Source: Whitmania pigra (Eukaryota; Annelida; Clitellata; Hirudinida; Haemopidae). From it: DNA of 64,000 nucleotides. Positions 1 to 40,329 of this stretch are shown piece after piece. How positions within the stretch are numbered: position 1 is the stretch's first letter; each line of letters starts with the position of its first letter. Where the stretch lies: positions 311,501 through 375,500 of the forward strand of contig JAJTWR010000446.1 of NCBI GenBank assembly GCA_021613335.1, written 5' to 3'. Below the pieces are notes generated by a model. The model was not told where the DNA came from and ran no database searches. It worked only from the letters and a program-made list of their open reading frames with translations. The position numbers were made by a program, and so were the translations under genes.

Positions 1-1503
1 ATTTTTCTGGACTTTTTTGGTGAAAAATGCAGAAGGGCAATATTATCCAACTTTAGTTGCAGTCAAGTGGGGCAGAACCTTTCTAGTGTTTGTGGAGCAT
101 CACAACAATGGTCTGCCCCAGAAGTTCTCAGTCCGAAACCAAAAGTAATTTATAATTTTTAAAACTAAAAAAACATTTTAATCAATTTAGTATATTTGCA
201 GGTCTCTGCAAAGTCGGATGCCTATAGTCTTGGTCTCATTGCATATGTTGTGTGGATTTCCATTGTTGATAAAAATAATAAGGCCCACAAGATGAGGCCA
301 ATTGATACCAAATATTTATCAGATCAACTTAAGCCTGGAAATAAGAGAGGTAATAAGGGACATTCTAAGTTTTTATATCAATGATTGAATGAGTTTTAAA
401 ATGCAGCTGGGAGACTACTTCAGAAGCTCATCAAACAAGAACCTGAGAAAAGAATGTCTGTCAAGGAAGTCATGAAGGATCCTGTCTTTTGGAAAAAAGG
501 GAGACTTCCATTTTTCTTTGAAGTGAGCTGCTTACTAAAAAACCTTGACAGCATTGAGCAATCAGTATATATTATATATATATCAGTAAAATATTCAAGA
601 CTTTATTTTTTATATTATTTAACACATTTGGGGGGTTAGGTTTTGGAGGTTAAAAACTAATATGTGATGTCATTTGTTTCCAGTGCCTGAAGTATTGTTC
701 CGAGAGAAAGAACATTGTATTGGACAATACCAAAAAGTGGATAAATAAAGTTGGTCGCAGGATCTTGGGAGGTAATTTGATAATTAGGCTATTTTTTGAG
801 TGTCTTTTGTGTCAGGATAGGATGTAAAGGCATTTTTAATCAATTCACCCTTTTATTGGAATTTTGATTCAAGTTAATTGTAAATTTGTGAACCTATGGG
901 ATTGTTTTGTAAGCATACATAAGGTTTCACTGATTCCATGACTACTTTGATGGTCTCAGTTGCAGAAGCATCAAGTGAATAATCTTTATGAGTTCCAAAG
1001 AGCTTCACATGCAAATTTAAATTTAAGTTAACATGTATAACACGCATATGATTACAGCAAGCAGAAGGGAATGAGTGGTACTTAAATTCAATATGAGTTA
1101 AAATATAGTTGTTGTAGTCTTTTAATAAGCATCATGATTGGACAATAGTTTGTCTGGGTTCAGTCTCTCTAGTTGTTGTAATCTAGTTCAATTAAATTCA
1201 TTCTATTGAAGGCGCATATGAGGAAGGCCAGCCTCAGTTTGTCCGATTCATTCGAAATAAAGTAGGTATTAGGAATTATTATGATTTGCAAATGTAAAGA
1301 TGTGAGCTTTAACTTGCAATAAATCTTTTCAGAAAGTACATCCCATGGACAATCATCCAAATTTTGGTGACAGGTATAAAATTGAGGAATGGATGATCAG
1401 AGCATCATTTGAGGATGATGCTTTAGATATTGTTGATGCTGCATTACCTCAGGTTGATAATGAATTCATTGATGAATTCTTTGGTCCCCAAGCTGACCTT
1501 TGA
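1..1503 (+). CDS. Pseudokinase-KEN protein (IRE1/RNase L-like), copy A, 5' truncated by window edge
   Basis: Exons read as <1-144, 202-349, 407-522, 684-771, 1227-1261 and 1333-1503 (TGA), all with GT-AG junctions and matching phases. The first exon holds the end of a kinase domain: Asn-Phe-Ser stands where Asp-Phe-Gly is expected, then WSAPEVL. The next two carry SDAYSLGL (subdomain IX) and the C-lobe end with DPVFWKKGRLPFFFE, which matches the IRE1/RNase L kinase-to-KEN junction (HPFFW...FFQDVS). The last two exons encode FVRFIRNK joined to KVHP. That recreates the KEN nuclease motif Arg-Asn-x3-His, in which IRE1 and RNase L use the His for RNA cleavage. The protein ends about 50 residues later, a short KEN tail. 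The family dimerises and cuts RNA in the cytosol; activity here is inferred. The N-terminal part lies left of the window. The paralogue at 44603 shows what is missing. Confidence 0.72.
575..709 (+). other. placeholder-free note: intron 772-1226 region start overlaps; see KEN copy A introns
   Basis: The span from 772 to 1226 is the longest intron of KEN copy A. It aligns closely by eye with 46478-46821 in copy B, including the stretch around 960-1010 and the pyrimidine-rich 3' part. The flanking exons 684-771 and 1227-1261 are much less conserved between copies. Nothing else is seen in it. Confidence 0.4.
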
Positions 1504-1574
1504 TTAGATCGTTGAATATCATGAAATTCATTTTGTTTAATGATAATTACTATAATAATAAATGATTATGTAAA

Positions 1575-1709
1575 ATGGACTTTGCTGAGTTATTAATGGT
1601 TGCTGGAATTGTTTCTGGTGAGGAACACTTAAAACATGGGTCTGGTTCTACTTCTTGCTGGATGGAGGAGATTATTTGGAGAGGGCTGTCGGGTTGTATT
1701 GGGAAGTAA
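1575..1709 (+). CDS. Short conserved ORF downstream of KEN copy A, function unknown
   Basis: A 44-codon ORF starting MDFAELLMVAGIVSGEEHLK and ending GLSGCIGK. It is not recognised. Its counterpart at 47211 in copy B reads in the same frame. By eye most differences between the two fall at third codon positions (for example TTA/TTG, GAA/GAG, ACT/ACC, TGC/TGT), which suggests coding constraint. The copies differ at the 3' end: here the frame stops after GCIGK, whereas copy B runs on. It lies about 70 bp past the KEN stop codon, so it could be a short separate gene, a former exon or a repeat fragment. Confidence 0.35.
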   Translation: MDFAELLMVAGIVSGEEHLKHGSGSTSCWMEEIIWRGLSGCIGK

Positions 1710-1999
1710 TAAATAATAATATAGAAATATACTTTTACATATTTGTGCCGCTAAAGGAGCGAGATTCGGTGTTAGCAAACAATAAGATTCCCTACTTTTG
1801 CTCAAACGGCGATAGCTGACATTCAAAAACATTTCAGTTAAACTTGTCAAAAATTTAAGTGTGCTAAAATGTCGCTTGCGCAAGAATTTATGTGGAAGAT
1901 TGTCAGTGTGAACAATATAATGTGCGCATTAATCTGTGTGAGCAACGGTCTCTGGCGCAACTGCCGTTTGAGAAACCGGCATGTGATCAACTGCCATTT

Positions 2000-2690
2000 G
2001 AGCAACAGCATGGTTACCGAACGATAAATAACGAAAAAATATTATGTAAATGTTCTTTATGCCCACACTATTTAACCTTCGGTACGTCCCTGTGCCTAAT
2101 CCTCAAATGTTTTCGTTCATGAGACAAGCGAATATATTTGACCAGAGCGCATAGCACCTATATTCGGCCAATCCTCGAATATTGTTCCACAGTATGGAGC
2201 CTCCACAACAAGCAGGTCATAGCAAAGATTGAAAGGTTTTTAATTCCAAGAACTGTATCTTACAGGAGAAGCTTTCAGAAGCTCAGAGTCAAGACACTCG
2301 AACACCGACGTTTCACCGGTGATCTAGGCTACTGTCACAAAACATTACACAACTTCACTCACTGCAGCGTCTCCAAACTACCAGTTTTCGTGTTATCTCG
2401 CAAACGTGGTCACACCCACCATCTACACCAAGAAAAATGCTCCACGACTCACAGCCTTCATTTCTTCACTAACCGAGTCGCTAAACCCTGGAACTCCCTG
2501 CCGAGATCAGCTCCAAAACTCGAAGTAGACTTGCATTTCCTAGACTTAGTTAAAATGTTTCTAACAATTTGTAAATTATAATGACCTAAATTTTATCTAT
2601 GAGTCCTTATGTACAGATTAACTGACTTCGATTTGTGTTAGTGACCCTCTTTTTAGATTAAGTAAATAAATAAAAACAAGTTTTTTAAGC
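2000..2690 (+). mobile_element. CR1-like LINE 3' fragment
   Basis: The frame 2138-2581 encodes the C-terminal end of a non-LTR reverse transcriptase ORF2. It shows YIRPILEYCSTVWS, then KTLEHRRFTGDLGYC, then FFTNRVAKPWNSLPRS, the usual order of conserved blocks after the RT domain in CR1-type LINEs. No RT catalytic box is present, so this is a 5'-truncated dead copy. A shorter remnant of the same insertion (FFTNRV, NSLPD) sits at 47880-48140 in copy B, so it entered before the segmental duplication. Confidence 0.7.
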
Positions 2691-3120
2691 CACCATCAAC
2701 GCGCTAAGTTAAGAATTTTTAACAAAAAGCTTATTGTGTTGTATATACTAATTAGTTAATATTTAATTTAAAAAATTTTAATATCTAATTAATATACTTA
2801 GTATCATTATTTTAATTTATATCATATTATTTGTATTCTAATTAACTTCATCAATGGAAATGCTTTGTCAAGCTGCTTCCGTTGATGTCGGTGATTCTAG
2901 CAGCGGTCGGCAGTGTTCGGCAGCGGTGAGGGGGGGTCCGGTTTTTCGCAAAATTTGAGTCTCGTAAACATAGAAATTATATAAATGATACATATTTTGA
3001 AAGGGGAGATAATGACCTTTCTGAATATTATAAAATTATTTAATTTACTAAATTTTATTATTATAAAAATTGCTTGCAAAAATTAATTTGTTATAAACTA
3101 AAACTTTTTAACATAGAAAC

Positions 3121-3650
3121 CTATTGTGGTTTATATCATCTTGTAGGGCTAATAAATATCTTCAAAATGACATATACCATGGTGCAATTCCATGTACCAA
3201 AGTTGAGATATCACGCCTCAAAGTTTTACAGACGACCGATTCACTATGGTTATATCTTGTGGCTTAAATGACTTGTAAAACATGGGATTGCTACGATATT
3301 TATGTAGCACTGTAGTGCTGACATTTATCTTCAAAATGACATATAAAGTTATTAAATTACTCGCTTTTGAATGGAGATATCCCACTTCAATGCGTCACGA
3401 ATAATGACCGTCCAAGCAGTTCATAGGGTTTCCGACGTCGCCGGGTAGACCGTATGGGCTGCATGGAAACCTAGTATGGCATATATCATCTTGTAGGGCT
3501 AATAAATATCTGCAAAATGACATATACCATGGTACAATTCCATGTACCAAAGTTGAGATATCACGCCTCAAAGTTTTACAGACGACCGATTCACTGCGGT
3601 TATATCTTGTGGCTTAAATGACTTGTAAAACATAGAATTGTTGTGATATC
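3121..3650 (+). repeat. Duplicated subterminal unit in the left TIR of the MULE element
   Basis: About 165 bp at 3124-3290 (starting near CTTGTAGGGCTAATAAATATC) recurs at 3482-3645. The right arm has a single inverted copy at about 6790-6960. The left arm has therefore expanded by one unit relative to the right, as seen in foldback-type elements whose arms grow by unequal exchange. Confidence 0.7.
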
Positions 3651-3892
3651 GTCTTAAAACTCATAATATAATTGTTGTGGTGGCGCAGTAATTAAAGTTA
3701 TTATTGCGTAATTAATTTTTTGTGATAATTACAATAAAATTAGTAATATAATTATCATAACATTTTTGATCTGTTGTCTTACCAATTATGCAGCTCCATC
3801 GATTATCGATAATAAAGTATACTTAGTACACGAAAATACCTAGTTAACCACATTAATATTAAGCCACCCGTCGGATATAACAACACTCTAAT

Positions 3893-6492
3893 TTATTGAG
3901 AATTTATTTTTTTACAAAATACACAGGGAAATTCTTCCTCAGTCCACTCCTTGTATGTTCTAACAATGTCGGTGCATTTGACATGTACCCACCGCTGGCA
4001 ATTGTAACATTGCACCCAGGTAGTGTCCCCGTCTTCTTGTCCGCAATATAGGCATACGTCGGTTAACTCTTCAGATGCTTGGAGGATGTTGTCCATGAAT
4101 TCTCTCCTCAGCATATGTTCGTCAAATTCACCACAAACGTCTTCTTCATTGTCCAGCCTCAACATGAACTTGCAAATGTATATGCCGCAGCTGTGACCAT
4201 CATTCTGTCGCCTCATTGATGGAAGCTTGCCAATTGAATAACCAGATACGTCCTTGAAGGCTTGCTTTAAGGTTGTCAAGAAATTTCTAAATTTCTGTAA
4301 CAAATCCTCGTCGTTGGACTTTATTCCTAAAGGATCGTATAGGAAAAAACTTTCTGAGGTTGTATCCACAACGAAAACAACGAAATGGCTATGTTGCACT
4401 AAAGGGAAAAAAGTGTATCTGAAAAGTAAAATTGCAGAAGTTAAATTATTTTGTAATGTAAGGTTTGAAGATATATATATATATATGTTACCTCTTCGTG
4501 AACAAATTAAGGTTTAGTAAAGGCGATTCTGGATGTATCTCTTCAATACCAAAATTGGCTGTAAATAATCCGCTTTCAACATATACGGTCTGCTTCAAGT
4601 CGTTGGCGACGCTGACGACATAATCAACCGCAAATGTTGATAGCCAATTTACGTTAGCCAGAGTTATAAAATCCTCCAGTCTCAAGGAGCAGTTGCCTTT
4701 TCGGCTGACTATTGTCTCATGGTTGAAAGGCACATCATAATAAGTCGGGTCGATTGGTAAGCCATTCGGACGCAGGGCTATGTTCCCAATTCGTAGCGAG
4801 CTGAATGTTATATATTTCCCAGCGTTCAATGCCTTTGCACTTGCATCGCTGTTGATATACCTTGGCTTCCTCGAGGATACGGGTCTCCAAACGCTTTCTG
4901 GCATTTTCCTTTTTTTGGGAGTTTTCATTCTGGTATGAAGAGTCACTTTGCTGCACATACCAAGCGCTCTTTTCTTTAACAACTCTGTAAATCGTCCAGC
5001 CTTCATGTACGTCTCGTTCTGCATCCATTCTTTCTTTAAATGCCTGAAAGAGCTCTCCACAATGGCATTTGATATCTGGAAATGAATAAAATTAGTAAAA
5101 TAAATAATGTAAAATTATCTTTGTAGTCTATACAACAAAATGTCAACTAACCTGCTTGCCAGTCGGCGACATAAATGAGGACCAAAGAGGAAGATAAGGT
5201 AAGTGCTTCTTCAGGACTAACTCTGCCAGCTTCTCATTATAGTAGACATTCGCCGGATCATCTGTGGCTACTATATTCTTTCTGATGTCATGAGCTTTAC
5301 TTAAGTAGCGCATGTAAAAAGGACTAGCTTTGTAAATTGCTGTGGCTTCCTCTTCATCGATCTGGTACCTCTCTTCATCCAGGACTCCTTCTTCATCGAT
5401 ATCTTGCTCCTCCAGACTGCACAGCTTGTCGAAATAAATCTGAAGGTCCTTCGAACGCGTCGGGGTCAAATATATGTGCAGAAGAGCAGTAATAAACTCA
5501 TCAACTTCGAAGAAAGAACTTCCCACAAGAATTTTGATCAGGGCGGATATATGGAAATCTGCCAGTCTTTTATCAGTCACAATTTTCCTCACATCCGTTG
5601 TGATTATTTTGGTGTAGTGCGAGCAACATAACAGCACCGTTACCTTGGGCCTAAGTAATTCAATTCCCTCAACACAGTATTGGTATATTCTCTCCAGGTA
5701 CTCCGAGATCGACATACACATTGTAACCTCCAGAATGGCATTCAAAGAAGCCCGGCAAAAATCAATAACAAATGTCTTGAAAAAGTCCCGATTGCGGGTA
5801 TGGTGAAATATGAAGCTTTTCACCAGTTGCAAAAGCCCGGCAATAAATATTTGCGACTGGTCATTTGAAAGGAAATCAAATAGAGGAAAAGCCTCCTGTC
5901 CGGTCTTCCAATGCATTACAGCGCTGTACAAAAAAATACTTTTGCTACCAGGCAGTGGATTTTTCATAACTGACCCCGTCGCATCAAAATGTATAATAGG
6001 AGCAATGCCATATTTCGCTGCGGAGTTAGCAATCAAAGCCTGTTTGACGCTTATCATCACAACTTCAATAGGAAATGCTGGAACCTTCAGAAAGACTTGC
6101 TCATTATCTTCCTTATGCAGTTGTATGTCTAATCTCATTCTTTCCGCAAGATCAATCAAGTCATCTTTATCTAAATCCCCGCAAGCTTTCTCCAGCGAAC
6201 TGATCTTTTTAAGGTTAGACTTCGATGGAAGTTCGTCCTTCTCCAGTCCTGGAACACCATCAGCACACAACTGTGTATGGAGAACAGCAGGTTTGTTGAA
6301 TTTTAATTTCTCTTTCACATAATCCCTTGCTTGCCCAAGCAGACGCCTCTTAGCGATTTTATGTTTATGGCTAATATGTCCTTTATCTGTCAGAACAACT
6401 AGCTCATTGCTTCGATCAATAGAGCATTTATATAATCTACAATCATATAAACAATATAAATACCCTGTTATTGTACTGTTGAAGAACTTCAA
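3893..6492 (-). CDS. MULE transposase with Ulp1/C48 peptidase and PHD finger
   Basis: Three exons on the minus strand: 6492-5152, 5075-4492 and 4418-3893. Introns of 76 and 73 bp have GT-AG ends and the frame continues across both. The N-terminus (CRLYKCS ... GHISHKHK) resembles the second half of a FLYWCH zinc finger, so a 5' exon may be missing and the start is uncertain. The DDE core is visible as HFDATGS, then VIDFCRASLNAI, then NAIVESSF, the last created by the first splice. The C-terminal third is a cysteine peptidase with His (HSHFVVFVVD), Asp (FFLYDPLG) and Cys (GHSCGIYIC), followed by a C4HC3 PHD finger (CLYC, WVQCYNCQRWVH, FPCVFC). No stop or frameshift is seen, so the element may have been recently active. 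Confidence 0.8.
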
Positions 6493-7435
6493 GTTGGTAA
6501 AGTTGCACGGGCAGGGTTTGGCCTTTAAGCCGGAAAGGCGTTACAAAACATGTACGATTTGCTTCAAAAAAGAAGTATTAGAAGAATGTTCGCAATTGGC
6601 AAAGGTTTGGGATGCTAGTCTGGAACTCGCTAATCGAAGGGAGGCGTTTAGGGAATTGATGAGCAAGAAAATACCCTGCCCGTGCATTGAAGTGGGTTAT
6701 CTCCATTCAAAAGCGAGCAATTTAATAACTTTATGTGTCATTTTGAAAATAAATGTCAGCACTACAGTGCTACATAAATATCGTAGCAATCCCATGTTTT
6801 ACAAGTCATTTAAGCCACAAGATATAACCATAGTGAATCGGTCGTCTGTAAAACTTTGAGGCGTGATATCTCAACTTTGGTACATGGAATTGCACCATGG
6901 TATATGTCATTTTGAAGATATTTATTAGCCCTACAAGATGATATAAACCACAATAGGTTTCTATGTTAAAAAGTTTTAGTTTATAACAAATTAATTTTTG
7001 CAAGCAATTTTTATAATAATAAAATTTAGTAAATTAAATAATTTTATAATATTCAGAAAGGTCATTATCTCCCCTTTCAAAATATGTATCATTTATATAA
7101 TTTCTATGTTTACGAGACTCAAATTTTGCGAAAAACCGGAACCCCCCTCACCGCTGCCGAACGCTGCGGACCGCTGCTAGAGTAATCGAGCTCTTCCGTT
7201 GAGGCTAGGAGCTTTCGTCATTCTTTTAATTAAGCTTCGTGAAGTAGTTTCTGTCCTGCTTGCTCGTCGGTTGATCTATCAAAGGAAATTGTGTCATGAA
7301 GGTACATGTCGTATTTCTGGGAAAGCTAACGTTAATGTCACGGCTTCTACCTTTATTTGTTCCGAAATGATTGATCTATCTATCAAAAGGTCTTTCCACC
7401 GTCTTCATCGTCATGAACTATTACTTGTTTTTCAG

Positions 7436-10400
7436 AATTCTGGTGCTTATGAAGAGGATGGCCACAAGGATGCTTTATATTGGAAGAGGTTTGAGGCCCA
7501 AAATTTGTTTAAATTTGTTTCCTCCACTTTTTTTGATGTTTAGCTTCAGCCTTTAATGTAAAACAAAATAAAAATTAGTTCTTTGAGGTTTGAAATATTT
7601 TATTTCTGCTAATAACAGCTTCGGTGAACAAACTGAACGTATTTTGCATGGTTGGAAACTATCTGTTCAATCCTCTGGGTCTCCATCTTGGAACAAATCT
7701 GTTGGGAATCTCAAGTTTAGTGACTCTGAATTTAGATTGACTCGACACTGGAAATCTGGAATCTGTGAGGAAAGAGGAAGCGGTAATGACAATCAGGGTG
7801 CTTTTGGAGCTTTTCAGTTTTTTTTTAAAACAAATTGTTTTAAATTGATTTATACATTACTTAGTCACTATAGCTCCAATTTATTTTCTTTAAATGAATT
7901 ACTGGATGCTAATAAATTTAAAAGACTTCAAAATAAATTAATATAATAGGAGATAAAAAGGAAACAATTGAAATTCCAAAAGCATGGTTGGACATGGTAG
8001 ACAAATCCAACATGTTTCCCAGACATGATGCTCATCCTCTTCATACATATTTTGGACTCAAAGATTTCATTGTCTTAGAATCTTTAGACATAATTGAAAG
8101 CTTGGTGATTATAAAAAGGTTGATCAGAGAACTCTCATTAATTGCCCACAAAACTGACTGGTGAGTTGGTGAATTGATGCTTATCAGAGCTCTTTATATT
8201 ACAGTATTGGTATAATGATGATAGTTTGACCGATACTCAAAAAATATCGGCTTTGGTATTGATGATACTTTTGGATGTCAATATTGAAACGAGTATTACC
8301 AATACTGTGACACTTGATAATACTTTTCTGGTGTTTTTTATGTCATTTTAAGAAACATTATCTAAATTTTATTCAAAAAATTGATAGCTAAGCATTTTGC
8401 CCATCTTTTTGGTAAACCATCCCAAAAGCACCTTTCCTTTTTTTGAGGCAAGCCATTCACAGACCCAATTTTCCATTTCTTCGTATGTGCCATTGATCGG
8501 AATAAGTAATCTGAAGGAGTAAGGTCTGGTGAATATGGTGGAGGGGTTAATACTTCTCAGGCAAGACATTTTAAAATATCTTTAACAAGAAGTATGTGAT
8601 GGTGCATTATTGTGAAGTAAAATTACTTTGCTGTGACTATGGCCCATTGTGATCATTTTACAATCAATGCATGGTTTAAATTCATAATTTATTGTCTATT
8701 GCTATCAGAATTAACTGCTTCATCAGGTTTCAGAAGCTCATTACATACCATGCCTTCTTAATCTCTCCAAACATGGAGCATTGTCTTCTTTAGAATATCT
8801 CAAAATAAACACTTTTCATATGCAGTTATTCGATTTAAGAAAGACTTTCTTTTGTGCCGATGAACCAACACTTGACTTTATGGTTTTCCAAAGTGCAAAT
8901 CCATCTATTAGGAAAATCCACATTATTAACCGATACACCTGATAAATTGGCTAATGTTCAAGATGCTTAAATTAGCTCATGGAATTGATATTCTGTTGTT
9001 ATATAATTGTTGGTTTTTATATTATTGTAATCCTTCTATTTCATTTCAGGCATGTTCCCCTCTTTTTGAAGACTGAAAGCTTTTCAGAGTCATATGATGG
9101 CATACTAGAGTGGAATGGTTTCAGGACTTCCTTTAGAGCGATAAAAAGTTGTTGTGAACCATATCCTTATGGCATGGGTTACTTTCATTACATGTTCAAG
9201 AGAGAGGTTGGTGCAGTATGTGATATATTGGGTTGTTGCATATATTTTATGTATTAATAATTGTTATACATTATATATAGTGCCGTTACATTAACAATTA
9301 ACATAACACATTTATGTAACAGCACGAACTTATGCAACCTAATAGTTGTGAATTATTGCTTCTGAATATTAACAAAAATGGCTAGATATTGCTCCCAATG
9401 TTTGAATAATGAGATTTCTATTTTGTTGGGAGAGGGGCTGTTAAAGCCCATCAAACTATTTTTGTGAATATGTGAGGCTAATTGAATGTTGTTCAGCATA
9501 ATTACCAAGGTTGTTATTCAAAAGGTGTTGGAGAAGGATGCACCAATTACTGTCTCTGTGAGGCTCACATATTCCTTTAATGAACAGTTAGATTATCCAA
9601 ACAAAGACATCAAATATGGTGTGTTAATTTTTTATTTTTAATGAAGTAAAGGCAGACTAAACCCAAATTTATGAAGCTAAATTTAATGACTGCATCAGTG
9701 AAAATCAAATGATTTGTGCATCAAACCATGTAGCAAACATTTTATAAGATTTTTAAGCAAGTACACTATATGCTTGTGTAAATATGGAGGATGGAGTTGT
9801 TTCATAAATCCTAAAATTTAAAATAATTTTCTTGTTGCTTGATTTAAATGGTGAGTGAGTGTTTACAATAATTAACATCGAATGAGATTGTCTCAGATTA
9901 GATCAGGGACAGTGTTTCCTTTAATATGTACATATTATTCACAGCACTTGATTTTGGGGACCCAGAAATTGAATATGATTACATTGATGCATGTGGAGCA
10001 GACAAGTGAGCTTACATTTATGGTTGACTCACTTATTCACTCTATTAATCATGTATCTGTCCATTCACAAGCTCAAATAGCACATTCACTTTTTCCAAAA
10101 AGTATTTGAAATTATTCTTTTGCAGTGAATTTGAGCTTTGTGCTATTTGGTCAGATCCAATGGAATGTAATTTCTCTGATAACACCAGGTTAGTTGTTTC
10201 AGCTTATTAAAGTTTATTGATTAATGTTGGAAGGGACTAAATATTCTTGATAAATTACTAATTTCAAGTGATTCGGATCCTCCTGAAGATACCTATCGGT
10301 CAGTTAGATCTATAGTTATATTAATGTTTACTGATTGATGCTGGAAGGGAATAAAAATTCTTGATAAATTACTAATTATTAAATTTTTTAATTTTAAGTA

Positions 10401-13400
10401 ACTTGGATACTTCTGAATGGTTCCATTGGTCAGTTAAATTTATAGTTTATTACTGGTTGATGTTGGATATATAACCAAATTGATAAATTACTAATTCGTT
10501 TAATTTTAAACCAAAGGGATTGGGATCCTAATGAAATTCCAAAACCGTGAGTTAGGTTTACAGTTTTATTGGTTTTTACAGATTGATGTTGGAAGGATAT
10601 AAAATTTCTTGATAAATTACTAATTTGTTTAATTTTATACCAAAGGGAATATAATCCTGCTCAAGCTCCTGATTGGTCAGTTGGATTTGAAGAATAATGT
10701 TTACTGATTGATGTGGGAACCTGTTAAAAGTTCTTGATAGATTTTTTAATTTGAAACCAAAGGGTTCTGGATCCTCTTGATGCTCCTGATTGGTCTGTTA
10801 AAGTTAAACTTGCAGATACATCTGATGTTGCAATGGGTTTGGAATTTATTACCATTTATTTTATTAATTAAATTAATGTTCTTAGTTAAATTAAATTAAA
10901 AAAATTAACTACATAATAAATAATGTAAATGCTGTTATCATAAGGAGATTGTCTAATGAGGTTACTAAATCTGTGTACTTCAACACAAATTGAACCATTG
11001 GCATCAAATCCTCAAGTCTCTTCAATGCTGAAATATAGAAGAATGTATAAGCAAAGAGAAGGTGGGTTACCTTATTTATTCCTGTTCTCACTGGCTTAAC
11101 ACATGTCCCCAAAACTAACACTTTACCATTATATTTCCAATATGCATGTCTGGGCACTTGCTCACTGATTAGTATTTGACTACTGTTCTCTGACTTTTCT
11201 TTAAATTTTTCAAATTTTATTTAGGTCAGTCTGGAAATCACCCATATCACTCTTTTTTTACTAACTTCCCTGCTAATGTGTTATCTGCAAACTTAGATAC
11301 AGTTGAACATGGTTATGTTGCTGGCCTAAGAGTTTCCTAGGTATCCAAAATTATGTGCATTCAAATGAGTGTTCAGCTACTTTTTGTCTTCTGTTGTGCA
11401 ACCTCTAATAAGCCAGCAAGGATATCCACCTTTTTTGCAACAGATCACTGATGGGAAGTTTTCTTGCTCACACTATCTTTCAATTGCTCTCAATTGAACT
11501 ATTGATCATTATCGCTGGTATTACTATCGATATTTATTGCTGGAACAAAGACTTTTCCATCCTAAAATGGGATTGGATGGAATATGTACTAACCTGTTTG
11601 CAATTTAATTTTAGCTCTTTTTTTATAATTGATGGTGCAGTACCTAATAAAATGCCCTAACATTCTAATATTGCTTGCTGCTTGTCAACCCAGTAACACA
11701 GTTCCTCAAACAGCAATAGGTTTGTGAGGCATGATCTGTTCCTGGTGAATCAATGCTGACTCTTGCCTATTACCTTATTTCTTTCATTTGCTTATTTATT
11801 AAACTTAAATTTATGAAAATATTTTTATGCAAAATGTGGATGTCTGCAAAAGGGCCCTTTAAATATTGTTCTACTTTTTAAAATTAATTATCATTTTGAT
11901 AGCACAAAGTTATTTTTTGCTTTTATTCAAACTGTATATTGTACATAATTTAACAGAGCCCAAGGTCAGGAAGGTTACCTCAAAACTCATCCATAAACCT
12001 GAAGAATCTCTCATTCCTATTGAATCATTGAATGCCATTCTTGATGTAGGTTGTGAGGATGATTATTGTGATGATAACTCATCTCTGATAACTGATATTG
12101 AGGATAGTTTAGTAATATATGTGTTGGTTGCAATATTGGAATTTGGAAAATTATTTACTGTGACATTTGACCAAGGTGTTATTTCTGCAATATTGATATA
12201 AGGCTATCAGTAAGGATTGATGATTGTATATTAAGTTCTGATTTGAATTTTAAAATGTTTCTTTTATGTTGACATTTTAAAATGTTATTTTCAGTTCTTG
12301 TTTTGTGATGCAAAGTTACATTATTCAAATGGTTCAGCCACTAGAGATGGATATGAAGTTGAGAACAAGTTCTTCCTTACATACAAAGTAATCAACACAA
12401 TAGTATCGTATTTGTTATTAATTATAATTTCATTTGCATGTGCAAGTCGCATTTGTAACATAAACATTTGCTTATAAAATAACTTTAGGAGCTATCAAAG
12501 TACTTCCAATCAGCTCAACTCTCCAGTCTCATTAGCCGATTGGCAATATGCATTTGCACTGTCAACAAGTACCATGGAGGTATTGGAGCTGTAAATCAAC
12601 TATGGCAGGAGTTTGTTCTGAAACTGAAATATTGCGTGGAAAACAATTGTGAAATTAAAGGGTATTTGCCCATTATTTTTGCATTAAACTTCTTTTTTAA
12701 CCCCATTGTTTAATGAATATAATAATGACTTTAATTTATATTTGTTCCTACTTACCAAATCCAGTGATTATTTAATCAATGATTTCCTAATAAGTGATTT
12801 TATCAACCTAATTAGATTTGCTATTTTTCATGTAGATTGGAACCTGTTAAGACAACCTTGAATTATGAAAAGCTGCTCCAGAAGTTACAAGTAATACCTC
12901 ATTTTCATTTATTACGATATGACCTCCACTGATTCATTCTTATTGATTATTAATGTAATTGCTTTTATTTAAATCATGATTTTAACGAAATAATCATCTT
13001 TGTCACTGCAGATATTGAATAGTTGCATTGAGAAAAATAAAGGCAGGGATGCATCATCACTAATTACCAATAATTACAGTGAGTCATTTGTTAGCAACCA
13101 CAGATGATTATGGTGATGTTGCATATCATTGTGGCATGCAATTTTGCAAATTGTGTTAGCAACCCAGCTTCACAGCACAAAGCGCCCTTTGGTTTGACGA
13201 ATTGCATCTGATGAAGTTGAAACTGTAAATCAAAGTTGCAAACATACTGATCATAAACGATTCTTTGTTTTATGAATTATCTAATTTATGCGGTTATTAT
13301 ACAATTTTTTTTGACATTTTCAGCTAATATCAAGAGTAACACTGAAATTTCTAGAGATGATTTCATGGACATTTCTGAATTGCCTTCAGGTATAGAAAGT

Positions 13401-16400
13401 ATTGGCCAACCAGAAGCCAGGTAAAAATTACAAGTTTTGCATATTCTGGTATTTGCTGACTTACATATTAAAATTATGTTTTTCATGATGTGGTTGCTTT
13501 TGTGTTGTAATTAAGGTGCATTATATTATTTAATGTAAAGATTAAATGTTTACATTTATGTTTTTTAGTGAGGAGTGCATAGACATTTCTGGATTGTCTT
13601 TGGATGAGGAAAGTAGTAACCAATCAGAAGACAGGTAAAAGCTTATTTTTTCTATAATTTTTATTAACTTAGTTAAATTATGTTTTGCATGCTATGGTTT
13701 CTTTGTTTTGTGGTTAGAGTGCACTATATTTAGTGCAAAGAAAAAATGCTTGCATTAACTGTATTTTAAACCATGTAGAATATTTTTTCTATAATTTTTA
13801 TTAACTTTGAAATTTGGCACATTTGTTAAACTATATGAGGAAATCAAACTAAAATTTCAGATTTTTTTCTATCTGTATCCAAAATATGGGTAGTTGAACT
13901 TTAGCCAAATGCCAACACCTCTGGTGCTGTGCTCGTAATTTCTTTCTGTAAATAATGTCTTATTAAGTGAGAGTGTACCTGTATGTGTTTTGGGATTTTT
14001 ACACAACATTTGATATTGATAACAGTGATATATATACAATAAAGGTTGTATTTTAATTTCTTTCAATATATATATGTATATATGGAAAATCAGTTGTACC
14101 TTAAAAATGTACTAGAAAAAATGCATTAGGGAAAATTTCATGAACATATATTTATATTTAGTGGTGCCAAATGATTTTCCATTCTGAAATGGTGTTTGCT
14201 GGAATACCATGCTGACGAGAAAATTATTATTATTAGTCTGTCTGTCTGTTTCTTTTTATAGCTTAAGTATGATTCCATTGTTTTTCTCTACTGACTGATT
14301 GTCCAGTTTTCTTTTAACATATCAAGACATTTTTTGAACAAAAAATAGAACAGAAGAAAAAACAAAATAGCTATAGCATGTTACTCTTCAGACGGTGACT
14401 TGTCATAACATGGAATTTTCAATTTGGTATTTAATATAAATTATTGATTAACAAGCAACATGTGCAATCTGCACAAAGAATTTACCAGAAACTCATTAAG
14501 TCACAAAAGTCCTTTGATCGTTTAATTTCTTTTGATCCTACCCTGAGTTCCTGTTGCAATGTGTAGAATGAAGGGTTTGATTTGGAATTTTTTATTTTAT
14601 TTATTTATTTATTACACAACAAATTGAAGGGTCATTCAATGACCACTTACAAAAATTTTGGTAAGTTCAACAAATTGTGTGCAAATAAAGTGCAGAAGCA
14701 AGTTCTTCAAATCGATAAGTATTTGTTAAGGTCAGTAGACGAAATGCAAGATTTGAATCGAGATAATGTTGAGGAGTTTATTGCATCAAGAGGTAGAAAA
14801 TTGGAATTTCATCTATGTTATTGATTAACATATTCGAGCCACACAGAGTGAATCATCTTATCAAACTCACCTTATCATCACGTCATATGGACATGTAACA
14901 AAATCCACAATGAACCAATTTTACTGCTATTTTAACGGGGCTATTTCGCCCTCAGCTCTTTTGTCCCTGGGCTATTCCGACGGGGCCGTTTTGATGGGAA
15001 TATTTTGTCCTGAGCAATTTTATCCCCAGGCTATGTTGACGGGGATGTTTTGTCGGGGCTATTTTGACGGGGTGCCCCTTCAGGCGAAATCAATAAAGGT
15101 GAATTAGCAACATAAATGATTGATATAACCGATGAGAAAATGTTATTAATTTGGCAGTTCTGACCTCCATAAGATTCCATTTTGCTACCATAGATGAATA
15201 TGAGGAAATTGCCCTTTTGGTCATTAGATTTTAATGTACAAAGCAGTGATATAATATTCAATGATTTTCTCATACTGCAGCTACAGATCGACCAAAAATT
15301 CAAATTTTTTTTATGTACTCATATACAAATATACCAAATTTCAAATCAGATGTTGTGTTGATTTGATGTGGGATGACTCATATGTCCCCTTAGGACACTG
15401 TAGTTATACATGTGCTATATAAAGTAAATTTATGTTTATAACATTAAAATATTTTTTTTGAGCTTCTTGTGAAACTTAGAACATTCAGTTTTTATTGATT
15501 AAATGATTGATTATTTTTATTGATTATAATTTTTAAATGTTCATTTACTTGCAAAAGCATGAAAATGCATGATGTTAAGTATATTCAATGTTAACAATGT
15601 ATGAAGTTGATGTAGTTTTGAATAATTGTTATTTCAAGGATGAATTTCCATTTCAACACAATGCATGTGATTGATGAGACCCATTTATAGTCATTTGTAA
15701 ATATTAATCAGCTCCATAATAATATTAATATTAACATAGATAATCATCATTTGAGCATTAATTTATTCATGACATTTGAACATCTCAATAAATTATATTA
15801 AAAGCTTGGATTTTCAAAATATGCTAATAATTTGTAAGTAACTCATTAAACTTTTTCAGAGAGGGTGCATCAACAATTGGGTCCCACATGAGAGTTAAAA
15901 TGTTGTTTGACCATTTGATGTCAGATAAGAAGGCTTTTAAACGTGTCAACCCTGGATGTGTTCTTGGAGACTTTGTGAGCTGGTGCTCATGTCAGTATTT
16001 TATGGATGAAATGGTCATGGATGAAGGATATAATGAGGTGAGTTACACACATAGAGTTGAACCTATTATTTTCAAACAAAGGGGTTTGCCAAAAACATTA
16101 AGATAACTGATGAGTGAGATAACCTAAAACATGTGGCAGCAAAATATCAACATGCTTGAAATTTCTTTATGTACAAAATGTATGTTAAGACATGAGAATT
16201 TATGGTGCCCACACCTAGACATCTAACAAATAATAGACATTCATTACTAGACAATTATAGACATTTTAAGAAATTGAATTAAGGTCATTGCTTATTAATA
16301 GTACTTCTTTAAAGTAATTGTCAGTTAACAATTCAATCTAATCGTAAAACTTCAGTTTTGAACATCCAGTAAATATTAATAGAATACATTGTTTTTTACA

Positions 16401-19147
16401 TTAAGTTTTGGGGGTGGGTACATGTAATCCAGTCTCTTAGCTAGCCATTGTCATTTGTCCTAAGGCATCTGTTATTGTTGGATATTCCTACAATGTAGAG
16501 TGTGAGTTCATGTTAGACCAGCACTGTAAGTCGGTCTTTCAACCTCTTTCCACTGTGACAAGCCTTCCCAGGCCGAACCATAGTATCATCCTGAAGATAT
16601 TTCCAAAACATTTCATCAGATGGTAAGGTTTGTTGCAAACTATTGATACTGCATTGTCAACATCTGTGCTCAGGTGGATTGAAGACAACCCTCTCATACA
16701 TTTAGTTTATCACGTAGGCATTCTTTTTCCATCCAGAAATGGAGTTTGCTGGAATGCTTAGATGATAGTTTTTGTTTTTCTAGTTGCAGTATGATTTTTC
16801 TGTTAACGTCCAGTTTTAATGCATTCAGTTTTACAAGGAAAAAAATAAACATTATTTAAAACATGCTGGGGGGCTGAATTGACATCCCTGATGTAAATTG
16901 GAGGATTTGGTCTTTTCATTTTGGAGGAGGTCCTCTTTTATGCTTGAGATACTAGGTTTAGGCAATACAAAAGAACGGGACATGACAGATGAAAGAATGG
17001 TGGAGGGAATTTGGCAGTTCTATGTCAAAAACATCAACTATAACAATCAAAGGGTTGATGAGTTACCCAAGGTCTAGAGAAGTGGGATGTGAAGGCACTT
17101 TTTAACCATTCACTATCATTATACAGCACTCCTAATATGACTTTATATTGGGATTGGGATCTTGACCTTATAAAATAATTGATACAAATATTGACATAAA
17201 TGATGTGATTGATCTGATTAACATGATTACCAGGGTCACCTGAGACAAAGGATAAAGTTATCGGATGAGGTAACAGTGTTGATTAAGAAAAATGCTCCTA
17301 TGCCGAACATGTTTCTTGAGGATGATGCTATGAAGGTGATGATGTTATTTAAATGGTTTAATATATACTATTTAACGTATACTAATATAACTATACTGAA
17401 ATAACCTGGTATTTGCAATAATGACATTTTATTAACAGTGGTTAATGACAATACATTGGCAATGAACACGATAGTGATGCTTAATGGATTTGACTTAAAC
17501 TTATTTGTATATTATTTCATAATAGCAGTTGGAGGGTAGTGGCAGTCCACCAAGACTTTATTCGTATATGTAAATTAAAACATTCATTAGTGATTAGATA
17601 ATGATTGTGATGATGAATCATATGCAGGTTCTCCTTTGGCTAGATTCGTTGAAAGCTTCAGATATGGTGTTTGGATTCATGCCAGTGCTGATGCATTCAA
17701 CTGTCACCACACTTTTGGAGCATAGTATGTTTATCAGTATGTCTGTAAATCAAATCATGTTACATTTTACTTATTAATCCATCAGCTGAGATCCTTCAGT
17801 TTCCCTTCCTTAAAGATCACCTCTATGAAATTGAAATCAAACTGATGGAGCTTGGGAGCATTGGGGCACCAGAGTGTGATTCCAGTGATTGGATCAAGAA
17901 ATTTGAGGTGACAATTATTTTGGTAGTTTTATTGAGTTGATAAAGAAAATATTTGAATGGATGTTTTAGAACTTGAACCTTGTGTTTCAAATTTCAGTGT
18001 CCTAGTTATGATTCTTCAATAATAGTAATAATAATAATAATAATATAATAATAATAATAATAATAATAATATAATAATAATAAGGCATTAAATTTTTGGA
18101 TGTAGTTTTTTTGGGACTGATTGTTTCAGATTGTTTTTGGTCTGGAAAATGTGAGAAGTCTTAAAAAAAAATAATAGAAATGGAATATGATGTTTTTTCT
18201 CTATATCACGTTATTAACAGGGCCTCATTCGTCAACTAATGGTTGTTGAGGAAAGAATGGCAAAAGGTCAACACCTGTTGAAGATGTTCAGGCATGTTGA
18301 CTCCTCCCATACAGTTGGTGACCTTGAGCTCCAGAAATTTGTCTGTGAACTTTTGCAATTTGGGGAAGCTTCAGTTTTGAGATCAAGTACTGAACGTCCT
18401 TCAAATACGAAACTTGGCAGGATCATTTATAAGGTCTTTCTCAACGGTTGCAAGGTGATACAATAATCTTGATATATAACAATTATTTTAGTTGTGTAAT
18501 TTTTCAGTATTATTCCATTAATTAATGTTCTAAGTACAATTAATAAGTATAATTAATTATGTAGTGATTTAGGCTCTAAAGTAGTGGATACAAAACATCT
18601 ACCATGAGTTATGTGATTATCATATTTAATTACTTTTAAAAAATAACCAGACAAGGATGTTGGAGAGTTTTTAATACTTTTTCTGGTGTAACAGTTAATT
18701 TTTAATTTGTATGTAATCATAATGCAACTGTTTCTTCCAAATGTAGCTTCAGTCATGGTTACTATGAAATGTGTGACTGCATATTAATAATCAATTTGTT
18801 TAGATTGGATGTATCTGGAAAGCTATCCTTAAAACATTATATATACTCAAAAATTATATTCTGTGAAAAAGTGATGTTATGTGTTGGATAGAACTTTATG
18901 TTATATGATCCTTTACTCAAACTGCTTCCTGTTTTCATAGAAAACATCAGAGGAACTAAACCCTGAGACTGGAGCCACTCTGGACCAAGTGGATAAACTT
19001 CCCAAGCCATTGAGAAAGGAGTACATCTTCAAATACGATAATTCTTATTGTCTATCTGATCCTGAATCCTATCAGCGAATTTATTTCACTATTTCCCCAG
19101 AAGAATTCTGTTGGGGTAGGGCATATACACTTGAAGTTAAAGAGTGA
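7436..19147 (+). CDS. RAB3GAP1-like Rab3 GTPase-activating protein catalytic subunit, copy A
   Basis: Exons: 7436-7488, 7619-7782, 7950-8160, 9050-9206, 9510-9618, 9945-10005, 10126-10188, (cassettes, see 10269-10675), 10763-10836, 10945-11061, 11957-12045, 12295-12387, 12489-12661, 12836-12890, 13012-13078, 13324-13420, 13569-13634, 15860-16037, 17234-17335, 17628-17724, 17786-17907, 18221-18454, 18941-19147. Phases agree throughout. Diagnostic matches to animal RAB3GAP1: ERILHGWKL, HVPLFLK, LDPLDAPDWSVKVK, KYHGGIGAVNQLWQEFVL, KLQILNSCIEKNKGRD, NPGCVLGDFVSW and GRIIYKVFLNG. The family activates Rab3 GTPase and acts with RAB3GAP2 on Rab18 at ER and vesicle membranes. The first coding exon is not resolved. 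The conserved stretch before the NPGC block (PMTED region in vertebrates) is not found. Whether this is the canonical orthologue or a fast-evolving paralogue is open. Confidence 0.85.
8340..8950 (-). mobile_element. Decayed mariner remnant in a RAB3GAP intron (copy A)
   Basis: Minus-strand reading gives WVCEWLASKKGKVLLGWF, the conserved C-terminal block of mariner transposases, with the catalytic-end PYSPD region just upstream in another frame. Frames are broken. The orthologous remnant sits at about 53790-54540 in copy B, so the insertion predates the duplication. Confidence 0.6.
10269..10675 (+). other. Array of four 30-nt cassette exons in RAB3GAP-like copy A
   Basis: Four units of exactly 30 nt lie at 10269-10298, 10399-10428, 10517-10546 and 10646-10675, each between an AG acceptor (usually CCAAAG) and a GTCAGT or GTGAGT donor. 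They are spaced 117-130 bp and set in near-identical intron repeats. Each enters and leaves in phase 2. They encode DSDPPEDTY, NLDTSEWFH, DWDPNEIPK and EYNPAQAPD, versions of the VLDPLDAPD start of the constitutive exon at 10763. No combination of junction codons makes a stop. They would add 10 residues each. Inclusion in mRNA is not known. Confidence 0.65.
13324..13634 (+). other. Pair of similar acidic exons in RAB3GAP-like copy A
   Basis: Exons 13324-13420 and 13569-13634 both encode an acidic stretch with the core [DE]-x2-[MI]-DIS-x-L (DDFMDISELPSG and EECIDISGLSLDEE). Both end in a phase that starts the next codon with AG. They resemble a tandem exon duplication of the acidic linker that in vertebrate RAB3GAP1 contains EEEFFECLSD. 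The intron after each begins GTAAAA. Copy B has the same pair (62223-62319, 62464-62529). Confidence 0.5.
13635..15859 (+). other. Large RAB3GAP intron with repeats and a protein-like ORF
   Basis: This 2.2-kb intron contains a repeat block at about 14175-14350 related to 16710-16870 (both hold GAAATGG-GTTTGCTGGAAT). It also has an 80-codon ORF at 14582-14824 with plausible protein composition (KFNKLCANKVQKQVLQIDKY) but no recognised family, and a G+C-rich minisatellite at about 14930-15080. The copy B intron is interrupted by a Tc1 element at 63024. Confidence 0.45.
14930..15080 (+). repeat. G+C-rich degenerate minisatellite
   Basis: Imperfect repeats of the phrase GGGGCTATTTTGACGGGG and variants (GGGCTATTTCGCC, GGGCTATTCCGACGGGG, GGGATGTTTTGTC) recur about every 25-35 bp. 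The base composition contrasts with the AT-rich surroundings. No coding role is apparent. Confidence 0.6.
16420..17060 (-). mobile_element. Possible decayed pogo/Tigger-like remnant in a RAB3GAP intron
   Basis: Minus-strand fragments near 16420-16520 (RDWIT-like) resemble the better preserved fragment at 59215-60180 (QPRDWITV). Frames are destroyed, so the call rests on similarity between the two sites. Confidence 0.25.
18004..18085 (+). repeat. AAT microsatellite
   Basis: About 80 bp of near-perfect AAT trinucleotide repeats with two AT slips, inside the RAB3GAP intron 17908-18220. Confidence 0.95.
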
Positions 19148-19273
19148 AGAGGCAGAGGACTAGAACGTTTCATAATTTGGGCAACTCTACAATATTTCAC
19201 TAGATGCTAATACATGTTTAAGAATTAAAGTTGATTTAAAACCAGGAGAATTTACCCATTGAAAAAACATTTT

Positions 19274-19279
19274 AATAAA
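19274..19279 (+). terminator. Candidate poly(A) signal, RAB3GAP-like copy A
   Basis: AATAAA about 127 bp past the TGA at 19145-19147. No competing signal lies closer. Confidence 0.5.
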
Positions 19280-19433
19280 AGTCTCTTGTTCTCATAATGA
19301 TTTCGATCTCATAAGAAATGGAAAGCAACATTTAAAATTCAACAAGCGTTTGCCAAATAATTAAAACTAACCTTATAAAAAATTAATTAATCAAAATTAT
19401 TTTTGTTATAAGCCACAGTAGCCCACTACCCCA

Positions 19434-28839: not shown

Positions 28840-31800
28840 TCAAAACACCCTCTCGTAGTTCTGATCGTTGTACCCGTTCATAGGTCTGTGAAGGGTGTGG
28901 CTGGCGGCGTGCTGTGCCGGACCTCCTTGTACTGCCTTTGCCTTGCGAGGAGGAGCATGCATTTCGAACATGGACATTTTGAGATCGGAAATAACCTTGA
29001 GATCGGAAGGCATCGGCTCCTGCCAGAAAAAGTCGTGGTTGAGGGCAGTGTCCGAATCGATGCGCTGTTTCGGATCCAAGACGAGGAGTTTGTCGAGAAG
29101 ATCGAGCGCATGCCTGTCCTTCACGTAAACTTCTAATCGTTCCTTCACCTTCCTTGTTTTGCCCTTTTCCAGTTCAAGTTTATTGTAAAACTCCAACTTT
29201 TCAACTCCTGGCCACACTTCAGGCGTTATTGAGCCGCACAGGTGACTAATGAATTTTAATTGCTGTTGTTCGCTGGTACCCTGCATTATGGGACACCTAG
29301 TCCACATTTCTGCCATTATGCATCCGGCACCCCACATGTCGATGGCCGGTCCGTAGTCGCGCTCCCCTAGCAGAAGTTCGGGAGGTCTGTACCACAGGGT
29401 GACCACCCTGTTCGTATATCTGTTGGGAGCTCCTTTGCTGATGCTGTAGGCTCTGGCTAATCCAAAATCGGCCAATTTGAGTGTGCCAGTTTTTGTTATG
29501 AGAATGTTAGCAGCTTTCATATCTCTGTGAAGAATTTTGTTGTAGTGGATGAAGAAGAGACCATCCAAAAGCTGCTGCATGATCCTTTTAACGTCACCGA
29601 GAGTGAATATCACTTGATTATTGGCAAGGAGACCAGCAAGGTCATGCTCACAAAAATCAAAAACCAAATAGAATTGGCTTCTGTATCTGTTGGCATCTGA
29701 TGCTTTTGTTCTACAGACTTCAATCAAATTGACAATATTCTCATGCTTTAACAGTTGCAGTATTCTTATTTCTCTCAAGGCCGTAATGGGAAACTGAAGA
29801 TATTGGAAGGGTTATAACAATTGATTAGATGAAAATGCATTGAATATGAAACATGATAATATATTTCATCTGAGAACAACTGATTTAATTCAGTTTAGAT
29901 GCTATAAAATGTACACCTTAGCAAGTCATTGGCTTATATGGCATATATACTCAGGCATACATGTTCTAACAAAGTTAATTTGTTCAGCATCAAGAAATGG
30001 TTAGCCTTATTATTTCAACAACTGATGTAATACAAGTGATAGAAAAAAGGTTATAACAGCAATTATTCTTCAAATAACTTAGGTTTAAAATAGTGCATAA
30101 AACTTAAATTTAGAGAAAATTTATAATATCATATGAAAGTATTTTTCACTTTGATTAAACAATGGCCCATTAATTCACATAAAAGGAAATTTTAGTGGAT
30201 GCTTACAAATTTTGATTTATTTAATAGCTGAAAATATCAGCAAGAGTGTTAATTTAAAAGAAAGTTACCAATAAAAATGGGTAAGTCGTAATAATATTTA
30301 CAGCACTGTATTTCCATTGCACAATCACTATCCACATCACTTTAACCTCTTTATGTTTTTTCGTGGTATTTACCTCCTCAAATTCATTGTTTAATGATAA
30401 AAGCTCCCAAAATTTCCTTCAAGAAGTTTGATTGGACAAAAATGTTAATCAAGAAACTTTACGAAAAAAAACCTTAAGAAGTAAATTCAACACTCAGGTC
30501 TAAAAGGATGGAATGAATCAGTTCATTTTAAAAATATAATTTGAAGGGAAGGATATTAAATGCATGAACACTCACTCCTTCTTTCTCATTCTCCATGAGG
30601 ACCTTCTTCAATGCAACAATCTTCTTTGCTTTCTTGCACCTGGCCATGAACACCTCACTGAAAATTTAAAAGTTTAAACATCAATAATAATAATATTATA
30701 ATGTTATTCATTATAATGATGATGATGATCATGATGATGAATAACATCATCATCATCATCATCATCATCCTTGTCACCACCTATTATTAGAATAATATTA
30801 TAATGTTATTATTATTACTATTATTGTCATTATCAATATCATTATTACATGACTACATTTACATTTATTTATCGAATATTTTACGTGCTCGATGTAATCC
30901 CGAAGGGATGTAAAGGCACGGCGAACAAGAGCTCACAAATATACAGTCTATGAAATAAAATAAAATAAGATAAGAATAGAATAAAAGTGAGTAAACAAAA
31001 TGGAGTAAAATAAAATAATAGAGACAGGGACAAAAAACAAACTATAGATTAAAGAATTATTGATATGAGGTCACAAATAGATGGGTTTTCAGTCCGGATT
31101 TGAAGGCTTCTGACGATTGAGCCAGACGAATGTTCGGAGGAAGCAGGTTCCAGATCACGGGAGCGGCGACATAAAAGGCCCGATCACCCTGCCTGACACT
31201 GCGAGACCGTGGAACGACCAGGGTCCTAGTCTCGGATGAGCGGAGTGATGCCCTGCCAGGGACAGCTGTGGTACTGATCAGTAGTTCAGTCAAGTACCGA
31301 GGGGCTTGACCTGTGGCGGCCTTGTGGACTAGGATGGCAGTCTTGTACAGCACCCGCTCCGGGATCTTCAGCCAGTAAAGATTAGCAAGTACCGGGGAGA
31401 TATGGTCCTATAGCCTCCCTCCTTGTATGAGCCTGGCAGCCGTGTTCATGACGGTCTGGAAGGTGCTAATGACTTGGTGATTGACGTTAACCAGCAGAGA
31501 ATTGCAGTAGTCAAGCCGCGATAGAATAAATTGAATAGTGAGAGACAGGAAAACCTCAGGTGGTAGGAATGGCTTCGCCTCCTTGAGGATGCGAAGCTTG
31601 GCATAGCAAGCAGCAGCAACCCGATTCACATGGGACTTCATGGAAAGGGAAGAGCCCAAGTAAACCCCCAGATTCCTGACTGTCCGTGAAGGGGTGATGG
31701 AAGAACCCGCCAGCTGGAGCGGGAGGTCACTGATGTGACCAAGTCGAGCCGGGGTGCCGAACCTGATTGCTTCAGTCTTGTCAGCATTGAGTAGTAGCCT

Positions 31801-36330: not shown

Positions 36331-36475
36331 CATGGGCGTGAAGGTTAGCCGAATGGGTTACGTGCCTGCATACGGCGGTAATGACAACAGTTGTAATGTG
36401 TCGTGTTCGAAACCCAGCCTGCACTGCCGCCAGCGCCCTTGGGAAGGAACGCTATATAAATAAAGTTACAAAACA
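36331..36475 (+). mobile_element. tRNA-derived SINE
   Basis: The head has tRNA-like internal promoter boxes: box A-like GTTAGCCGAATGGG and box B-like GTTCGAAACCC, about 55 bp apart. It is followed by a body (CTGCACTGCCGCCAGCGCCC) and an AT-rich tail with AAATAAA. A second copy of the same body lies inverted at 43064-43205, which supports a dispersed family. Confidence 0.75.
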
Positions 36476-40323: not shown

Positions 40324-40329
40324 AATAAA
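40324..40329 (+). terminator. Candidate poly(A) signal, bZIP gene
   Basis: AATAAA 129 bp past the TAG, with a second at 40343-40348. Confidence 0.45.

Follow-up and report, generated by a model that had tools for sequence, protein, structure and literature searches.

Two neighbouring copies of a gene in Whitmania pigra, here called A and B, have exons that are very different and introns that nearly match. In codons that are conserved, silent differences between the two copies approach saturation, and the introns group A with B where the silent sites do not, so the two parts of the gene have different histories. We consider it fairly probable (roughly 60%) that gene conversion homogenises the introns and flanks while selection keeps the exons different. 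Both the agent, conversion, and the guarding of the exons are what we infer, and the support for conversion is indirect, its tracts being read from divergence patterns in one genome. Copy B and part of copy A lie in the window, a stretch of 64,000 nucleotides that makes up bases 311501-375500 of a 395,683-base contig (C368; GenBank JAJTWR010000446.1, assembly GCA_021613335.1).

We modelled the exons and introns of A and B manually, from the splice signals and open reading frames of the sequence alone (Table 1). As modelled, A (432 residues) and B (427 residues) are predicted to be intact genes, each with 12 exons, GT-AG introns and a single open frame. Copy A had been thought to begin at base 1 of the window; instead, the gene extends upstream on the same contig (into L003), which holds six more of its exons and 26 bases of E4, its seventh. 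The Rx4H motif of A straddles the junction of E8 and E9. A CDK9 gene (28840-29811, minus strand) is overlapped by the edge of the duplication that holds the two copies, and bases 29283-30559 recur upstream of A at 97.7% identity; this neighbouring gene gives a match of ~70% to arthropods and other animals. Two different DNA transposons (2896-7181 and 48352-51955) occupy almost equivalent positions downstream of the two copies. They have terminal inverted repeats of 498 and ~1043 bases and proteins that are 28-30% identical on opposite strands, and the protein at 49382-50494 has Ulp1-protease and PHD domains. Two repeats that by eye are of reverse-transcriptase type (21936-23421 and 30858-32349) are 97% alike in opposite orientation. 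Each duplicated segment also holds one of two similar short frames (8976-9257 and 56621-56908) with a strongly hydrophobic start, the first of which gave no Pfam family.

Table 1. Positions of the modelled features of copies A and B and of their surroundings, numbered from the first base of the window.
Feature	Position	Strand	Remarks
A exon E4, in-window part	1..144	+	26 more bases with HGNLRP upstream; SNF and SAPE inside; from splice sites and open frame
A exon E5	202..349	+	59.5% identity to B exon 45689-45839
A exon E6	407..522	+	71.6% identity to B
A exon E7	684..771	+	65.9% identity to B
A exon E8	1212..1261	+	15 bases longer than B counterpart
A exon E9, KEN-like C-terminus and stop	1333..1503	+	64.3% identity to B; from translation
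A probable 3' UTR	1504..1583	+	AATAAA at 1557; 55% identity to B, yet 91% from 1584 on; transcript end predicted
B exon Ea, start codon	40609..40628	+	
B intron after Ea	40629..40735	+	1/107 differences from A
B exon Eb, coding for the presumed signal peptide, a short lumenal segment and the first part of the membrane helix	40736..40835	+	dS 0.62, dN 0.49 against A
B exon Ec, end of membrane helix	40898..40922	+	
B exon E1, juxtamembrane	44603..44720	+	Top omega point estimate: 2.6 against A, 3.3 against C, neither significant at 0.05
B exon E2	44803..44932	+	
B exon E3	44992..45148	+	
B exon E4 (HGN, SNFG)	45464..45630	+	
B exon E5	45689..45839	+	
B exon E6	45903..46018	+	
B exon E7	46390..46477	+	
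B exon E8	46822..46856	+	
B exon E9, KEN-like C-terminus and stop	46918..47094	+	
Tandem segmental duplication, A side, in-window part	1..19407		Continues upstream past -19999
Tandem segmental duplication, B side	29283..64000		Runs beyond window to ~72779
bZIP gene, neighbour, serves as control	39713..40195	+	PF07716, 39.0 bits

We searched the genome (178 Mb, 381 contigs) for further copies. Copy C is a third copy of the duplicated segment, present on two contigs (C129:852500-862400 and C39:128600-138500) that are 99.7% alike over 9831 aligned bases. It retains exons Ea-E2 and the start of E3; the remainder of its KEN gene was lost by a ~10.5 kb deletion. Copy D, on contig C12, is intact, with 429 residues in 12 exons, and its flanks are unrelated to those of A and B. 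With D as query we also found D2, on the same contig and nearly identical to D over the fetched part, and E, a 3' fragment in the fetched stretch of C52 with equal scores on C154. The search of the genome with A as query found no closer relative of A, and a six-frame genome search for the KEN family found a separate locus on C99 alone, missing D, whose KEN is split across exons. A further candidate on C97 was rejected as a paralogue, being B again (99.98% identity over 6012 bases and 99.9% over 10000). We likewise rejected A and B as haplotypes falsely assembled in tandem, since redundant contigs are 99.3-99.98% alike, against ~89-98% for the non-coding flanks of A and B.

Between A and B, identity in the nine main exons is 55.1, 63.8, 60.4, 75.4, 59.5, 71.6, 65.9, 74.3 and 64.3%; for the exons at 202-349 and 1333-1503 this agrees with the original prediction of about 55-70%. 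The encoded proteins share 47% of their residues (199/423), slightly less than the half to two thirds that had been estimated. Aligned end to end, the seven short introns differ at 1/107, 4/62, 8/82, 11/57, 8/57, 8/57 and 8/61 sites, which is 48 of 483 sites when pooled, with a range of 1-19% and significant heterogeneity (p=0.004). The 107-base intron with a single difference adjoins the strongly diverged exon Eb. This pooled total covers 7 of the 11 introns; the other four (after Ec, E3, E6 and E7) carry large indels, and divergence was measured there in patches (after E3, E6 and E7) or by comparing the ends alone (after Ec). The patches differ at ~6% to 31% of sites, with blocks at 6-8% beside blocks at 17-31%. 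Introns had been expected to be about 85-95% alike, and this is borne out at 640-683 (95%, 44 sites); the stretch 960-1200 reaches just 73% end to end (235 sites), because it mixes good blocks (83%, 92%) with poor ones. Three introns have lengths in A, B and D of 2029/315/66, 161/371/836 and 440/344/1297 bases. Intron 3 of A (L003 ~8130-9800) holds an insert of ~1.7 kb that by eye has a degraded sodium-channel/CUB-type coding look; the corresponding introns of B and D are far shorter. The presumed UTRs are as diverged between A and B as the exons, with differences at 24/64 aligned sites 5' of the start codon and 36/80 sites 3' of the stop, beside sequence just outside them that is 91% alike.

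The divergence of the exons extends to silent sites. At four-fold sites of the nine-exon set 32/70 differ, against 48/483 sites in the short introns (Fisher p=5e-12). Over the complete coding sequence, A and B have a dS of 0.81 and a dN of 0.41. Maximum likelihood puts omega at 0.46, significantly lower than 1 (p=2e-7), and four further estimates, made with the nine-exon set, range over 0.36-0.41 for dN and 0.61-1.01 for dS. The original prediction had read slow introns beside fast exons as positive selection, which was to be supported by intron divergence above dS together with an omega above 1. For A and B the values lie on the opposite side in both respects, and the excess of dS over dN is one of the two outcomes that it had named as contrary; the other, that gene conversion accounts for the similar introns, is the interpretation that we favour and likewise infer. 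Some support for the selection claim comes from exon 1, where omega is above 1 without reaching significance, at 2.6 for A-B (p=0.09), 3.3 for B-C (p=0.056) and 1.7 for A-C (p=0.36), so that positive selection on this exon is suggested. Whole-gene omega is below 1 in A-B as well as in B-D (0.37) and A-D (0.17). Before slow introns and fast exons are taken as a sign of positive selection, dS should thus be checked, because conversion that makes introns young gives the same picture. For A-B, positive selection alone fails because dS exceeds dN and omega is below 1, and a force that acts only on amino acids cannot leave silent sites ~5x as diverged as introns.

A comparison with D separates the histories of exons and introns. 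Among codons whose residue is shared by A, B and D, the four-fold sites that differ number 25/46 in A-B, 18/43 in B-D and 25/42 in A-D, and since these proportions are similar, the A-B split is by silent sites as deep as the splits from D. At exon four-fold sites, 7 changes are unique to D and 18 to A or B, whereas the interiors of introns have 62 and 30 (Fisher p=5e-4); adding two-fold sites brings the exon counts to 17 and 38 (p=2e-5 against the introns). We also rejected a constant ratio of exon to intron rates: the introns after Ea and Eb differ at 5/169 sites in A-C and 4/169 in B-C, but exons Eb and Ec together at 43 and 3. Set against the same two introns, these exons show 44 differences to 5 in A-B and 3 to 4 in B-C (p=0.009).

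Along the duplicated segments, most blocks far from the gene have a non-coding divergence between A and B of 1.8-6%, compared with 7-11% in its vicinity of a few kb, and the most diverged 400-base window, one dense in exons, reaches 27%. The block at 8400-12000, ~7-10 kb downstream of A, is an exception to the outward fall, at 9.6%. The neighbouring bZIP gene shows no exon acceleration, A-B identity being 97-98% in the two 400-base windows that span it. The A-side copy of this neighbour (L003 ~2600-3230) is nearly identical but has small indels and a 52-base exon insertion, and may be broken. Among the seven short introns (of 11), divergence drops with length (Spearman -0.93, p=0.002), a correlation that is confounded with position, the longer ones being the 5' ones, and that the four long introns, with patches to 31%, disobey.

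Two younger pairs, B-C and D-E, show the same tendency on a shorter time scale. Counts for B-C cover exons Ea-E2, C being without the rest, and, of the introns, four in full and the final 380 bases of another; counts for D-E cover E7-E9, which the 3' fragment E holds in the fetched stretch. Decimal counts are averages over paths and were rounded for exact tests. In B-C, differences amount to 24/690 in introns, 10.5/85.7 at silent sites and 39.5/307 at non-synonymous sites, of which exon 1 contributes 27.5/92.6 (~27/93 against 24/690, p=7e-14). Outside exon 1 the non-synonymous count of this pair is 12/215, not above the introns (p=0.17), and its silent sites in codons with unchanged residues, at 6/81, are not significantly above the introns either (p=0.12). 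In D-E, non-coding sites differ at 56/1707, silent sites at 6.5/61.8 (p=0.02 against non-coding) and non-synonymous sites at 34.5/256 (p=1e-9). Pooling both pairs gives 80/2397 non-coding, 17/148 silent (p=3e-5) and 74/563 non-synonymous differences (p=4e-17), so that silent sites differ at 3.4x and amino-acid sites at 4x the non-coding rate. Omega is 1.27 in B-C and 1.39 in D-E, neither of them separable from 1. Adjacent changed pairs are in excess, with 12 against 5.1 expected in D-E (p=0.001) and 13 against 6.2 expected in B-C (p=0.004), and positive selection on multi-base mutations may be responsible for part of the silent excess. Because C and E are incomplete, relaxed constraint may account for some of their change, although by itself it would not lift change above the neutral level. 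Of 28 residue differences in D-E, D matches A or B at 6 and E does so at 4, which favours neither branch as the one that changed. We also considered that divergence might track the whole mature mRNA, as the UTRs of A and B hint; this does not hold generally, D and E differing at 4 positions in the first 100 bases past the stop and B and C at 3/64 sites of the 5' UTR.

Several other explanations have to be weighed against conversion of the introns. If the introns and flanks were a plain neutral clock and an arms race had driven the amino acids of the exons apart, classical positive selection alone would account for the non-synonymous excess over non-coding sites in both young pairs (p=7e-14 in exon 1 of B-C, p=1e-9 in D-E), for point estimates of omega above 1 in exon 1, for exon changes that are clustered as if from multi-base mutations, and for silent change in the unchanged-residue codons of B-C that is not significantly above the introns. 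It is contradicted by the A-B omega and by silent sites near saturation at conserved codons, by the pooled silent excess of the young pairs and by the B-C non-synonymous count outside exon 1, and no single clock fits flanks that differ by 2% here and 11% there. As the whole story it is disfavoured because of dS, and we regard it as unlikely. A process in the germ line that is aimed at coding exons would raise silent and amino-acid change alike, much as the ~3.4x and 4x excesses and the clustered substitutions of the young pairs show; of the readings considered here we find it the least likely.

A and B might also descend from anciently balanced alleles whose introns were homogenised by recombination between alleles, as in the MHC, before or besides the duplication. 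This would leave the same signature, and the genome does contain redundant contigs of the region, but a single contig carries A and B as a tandem pair. The redundant contigs differ by ~0.02-0.7% against 2-11% for the A-B flanks, and by this measure A and B are not two alleles of the sequenced individual. Four 3-kb probes from C129 point the same way: the two inside the duplicated unit match both A and B, and the two outside it match nothing longer than 150 bases in 104 kb around the window. We hold a descent from balanced alleles to be quite unlikely. Functional elements that constrain the introns would fit the comparison of D with A, in which introns differ at 24% of 448 aligned sites in the presence of unrelated flanks and silent sites near saturation. 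Against such constraint, A-B divergence in the introns is similar to that of the non-coding DNA close to the gene on either side, and insertions of hundreds to thousands of bases have been tolerated, which makes it very unlikely in our judgement.

Under the preferred reading, intron conversion opposed by selection on exons, A and B would be old paralogues inside segmental duplications, and conversion between the segments would repeatedly overwrite flanks and introns, which would then look young. Conversion events that overwrite coding exons would be purged, since differing proteins would be useful, and the exons would thus retain their old divergence at silent and amino-acid sites alike. Positive selection would add new differences, perhaps most strongly in the juxtamembrane exon 1, and the explanation still requires selection for exon difference. 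What we observed directly is that exon silent sites far exceed introns in divergence, that the two have distinct histories, that divergence is centred on the gene and mostly falls outward, and that the introns are patchy. The length trend of the short introns would be expected if only tracts that fit inside introns survive. A model of such surviving tracts is best at a mean of ~30 bp and predicts 7-13% divergence against the 1-19% seen, with 7% for the 107-bp intron against 0.9% observed. Estimates of conversion tracts in yeast, in the portion of the source available to us, run from ~50 to several hundred bp (PMC3924818). Several points, besides the confounded length trend and the block at 8400-12000, count against conversion as the agent: its restriction to 57-bp introns between ~60%-alike exons requires very short tracts, introns look slower than silent sites in A-D too, despite the unrelated flanks, and the presumed UTRs of A and B are diverged like exons, which the model does not predict. 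The silent excess of the young pairs, the likeness of the D introns and the UTR divergence are not fully covered by it. Conversion of exons from spliced cDNA was set aside, as it would be expected to erase introns and to make exons alike.

The encoded proteins were compared with known families. In the predicted layout of A, B and D, a hydrophobic start and ~10 residues precede a membrane helix, which is followed by a kinase-like domain and, at the end, a KEN-like one. By hydropathy, maxima of 2.4-3.2 near residues 28-45 in all three mark the predicted helix, and the presumed signal-peptide region reaches 1.46 in A, 0.78 in B, where it is weak, and 1.90 in D. D passes the Pfam models for Pkinase (57.4 bits) and KEN (PF06479, 28.7 bits; cut-off 23.3). 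PF06479 did not pass its cut-off in A or B, whose 378- and 381-residue models gave kinase families only and whose two C-terminal pieces gave no Pfam family; both align to D along the full length. A profile of A, B and D searched against the PDB ranks IRE1 first (5e-23, covering the kinase and the start of KEN), so the IRE1-like architecture that had been proposed for the copies is borne out. In the part of a protein collection that was scored, the same profile found 3 proteins at E <= 1e-5, one of which has a KEN domain, and a search with B, likewise on a part, found 19 proteins at E <= 1e-3, none of them close. Aligned with IRE1, the kinase motifs are changed: the lysine is replaced by R, HRD reads HGN, and DFG reads SNF in A and SNFG in B and D. 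The Rx4H RNase motif, its R followed by a polar residue, is present as RNKKVH in A, RNLQCH in B and RNLSVH in D; the RNase motif is described, in the accessible text of the source, as Rx4-6H with a polar residue following the R (PMC3710099). The models show no lumenal stress-sensing domain, the ~10 residues between the presumed signal peptide and the helix being all that lies there, although an unseen upstream exon is possible. The separate locus on C99, which by eye has frames with HRD, DFG and a KEN sequence, is presumably IRE1 itself.

A, B and D are therefore probably membrane-anchored pseudokinase-KEN proteins, like IRE1 without its lumenal sensor. IRE1 is their first match among solved structures, and they share with it a predicted membrane helix before the kinase and the Rx4H motif; they differ from it in the missing sensor and the lost kinase motifs. 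With RNase L they share a kinase-like domain joined to a KEN RNase; they differ in their predicted membrane anchor, and our Pfam scans found no ankyrin family in them. The kinase of RNase L is itself largely inactive. The RNase of A, B and D may be active, and by analogy with what is known of the family, the dead kinase might drive assembly and the KEN domain cleave RNA. A defence role for the family is a guess, and the arms race with pathogens of the original prediction a hypothesis. A literature search, on partial texts, found nothing on a membrane pseudokinase-KEN architecture.

Introns that are less diverged than the coding sequence they interrupt occur in other duplicated genes. In venom phospholipase genes, the introns evolve at roughly one quarter of the rate of silent sites. 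According to the available part of a report on snake venom three-finger toxins (ASSET), introns are >85% alike and exon segments sharply different (PMC2711939). The likeness to our copies is that introns are similar while exons differ; the difference is that here substitutions occur throughout the exons, in place of swaps of discrete segments between unrelated sequences. In gibbon L/M opsins, as far as the consulted sections of the source go, introns are less diverged than exons by dS as well as by dN, dN is no higher than dS, exon silent divergence is 6.1-6.4%, and the mechanism described is gene conversion in introns together with selection against conversion of exons (PMC3213168). A theory of peaks of divergence has been set out in a paper whose accessible portion also cites another duplicate pair with introns and UTRs less diverged than the coding sequence (PMC3924837). 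On these partial texts, the primate L/M opsins resemble A and B in being tandem copies with exon dS and dN above the introns, with dN not above dS and with differing exon and intron trees (PMC3213168, PMC3924837). A and B differ from them in that silent sites are near saturation, most exons are involved and the presumed UTRs are diverged. The case described here is more extreme than that of the opsins, with near-saturated silent sites beside short introns that are 1-19% different, and it recurs in two more pairs. If the preferred explanation is true, this gene family would be a good place to study the contest between selection and conversion, and to learn whether the RNase part of these proteins serves defence.
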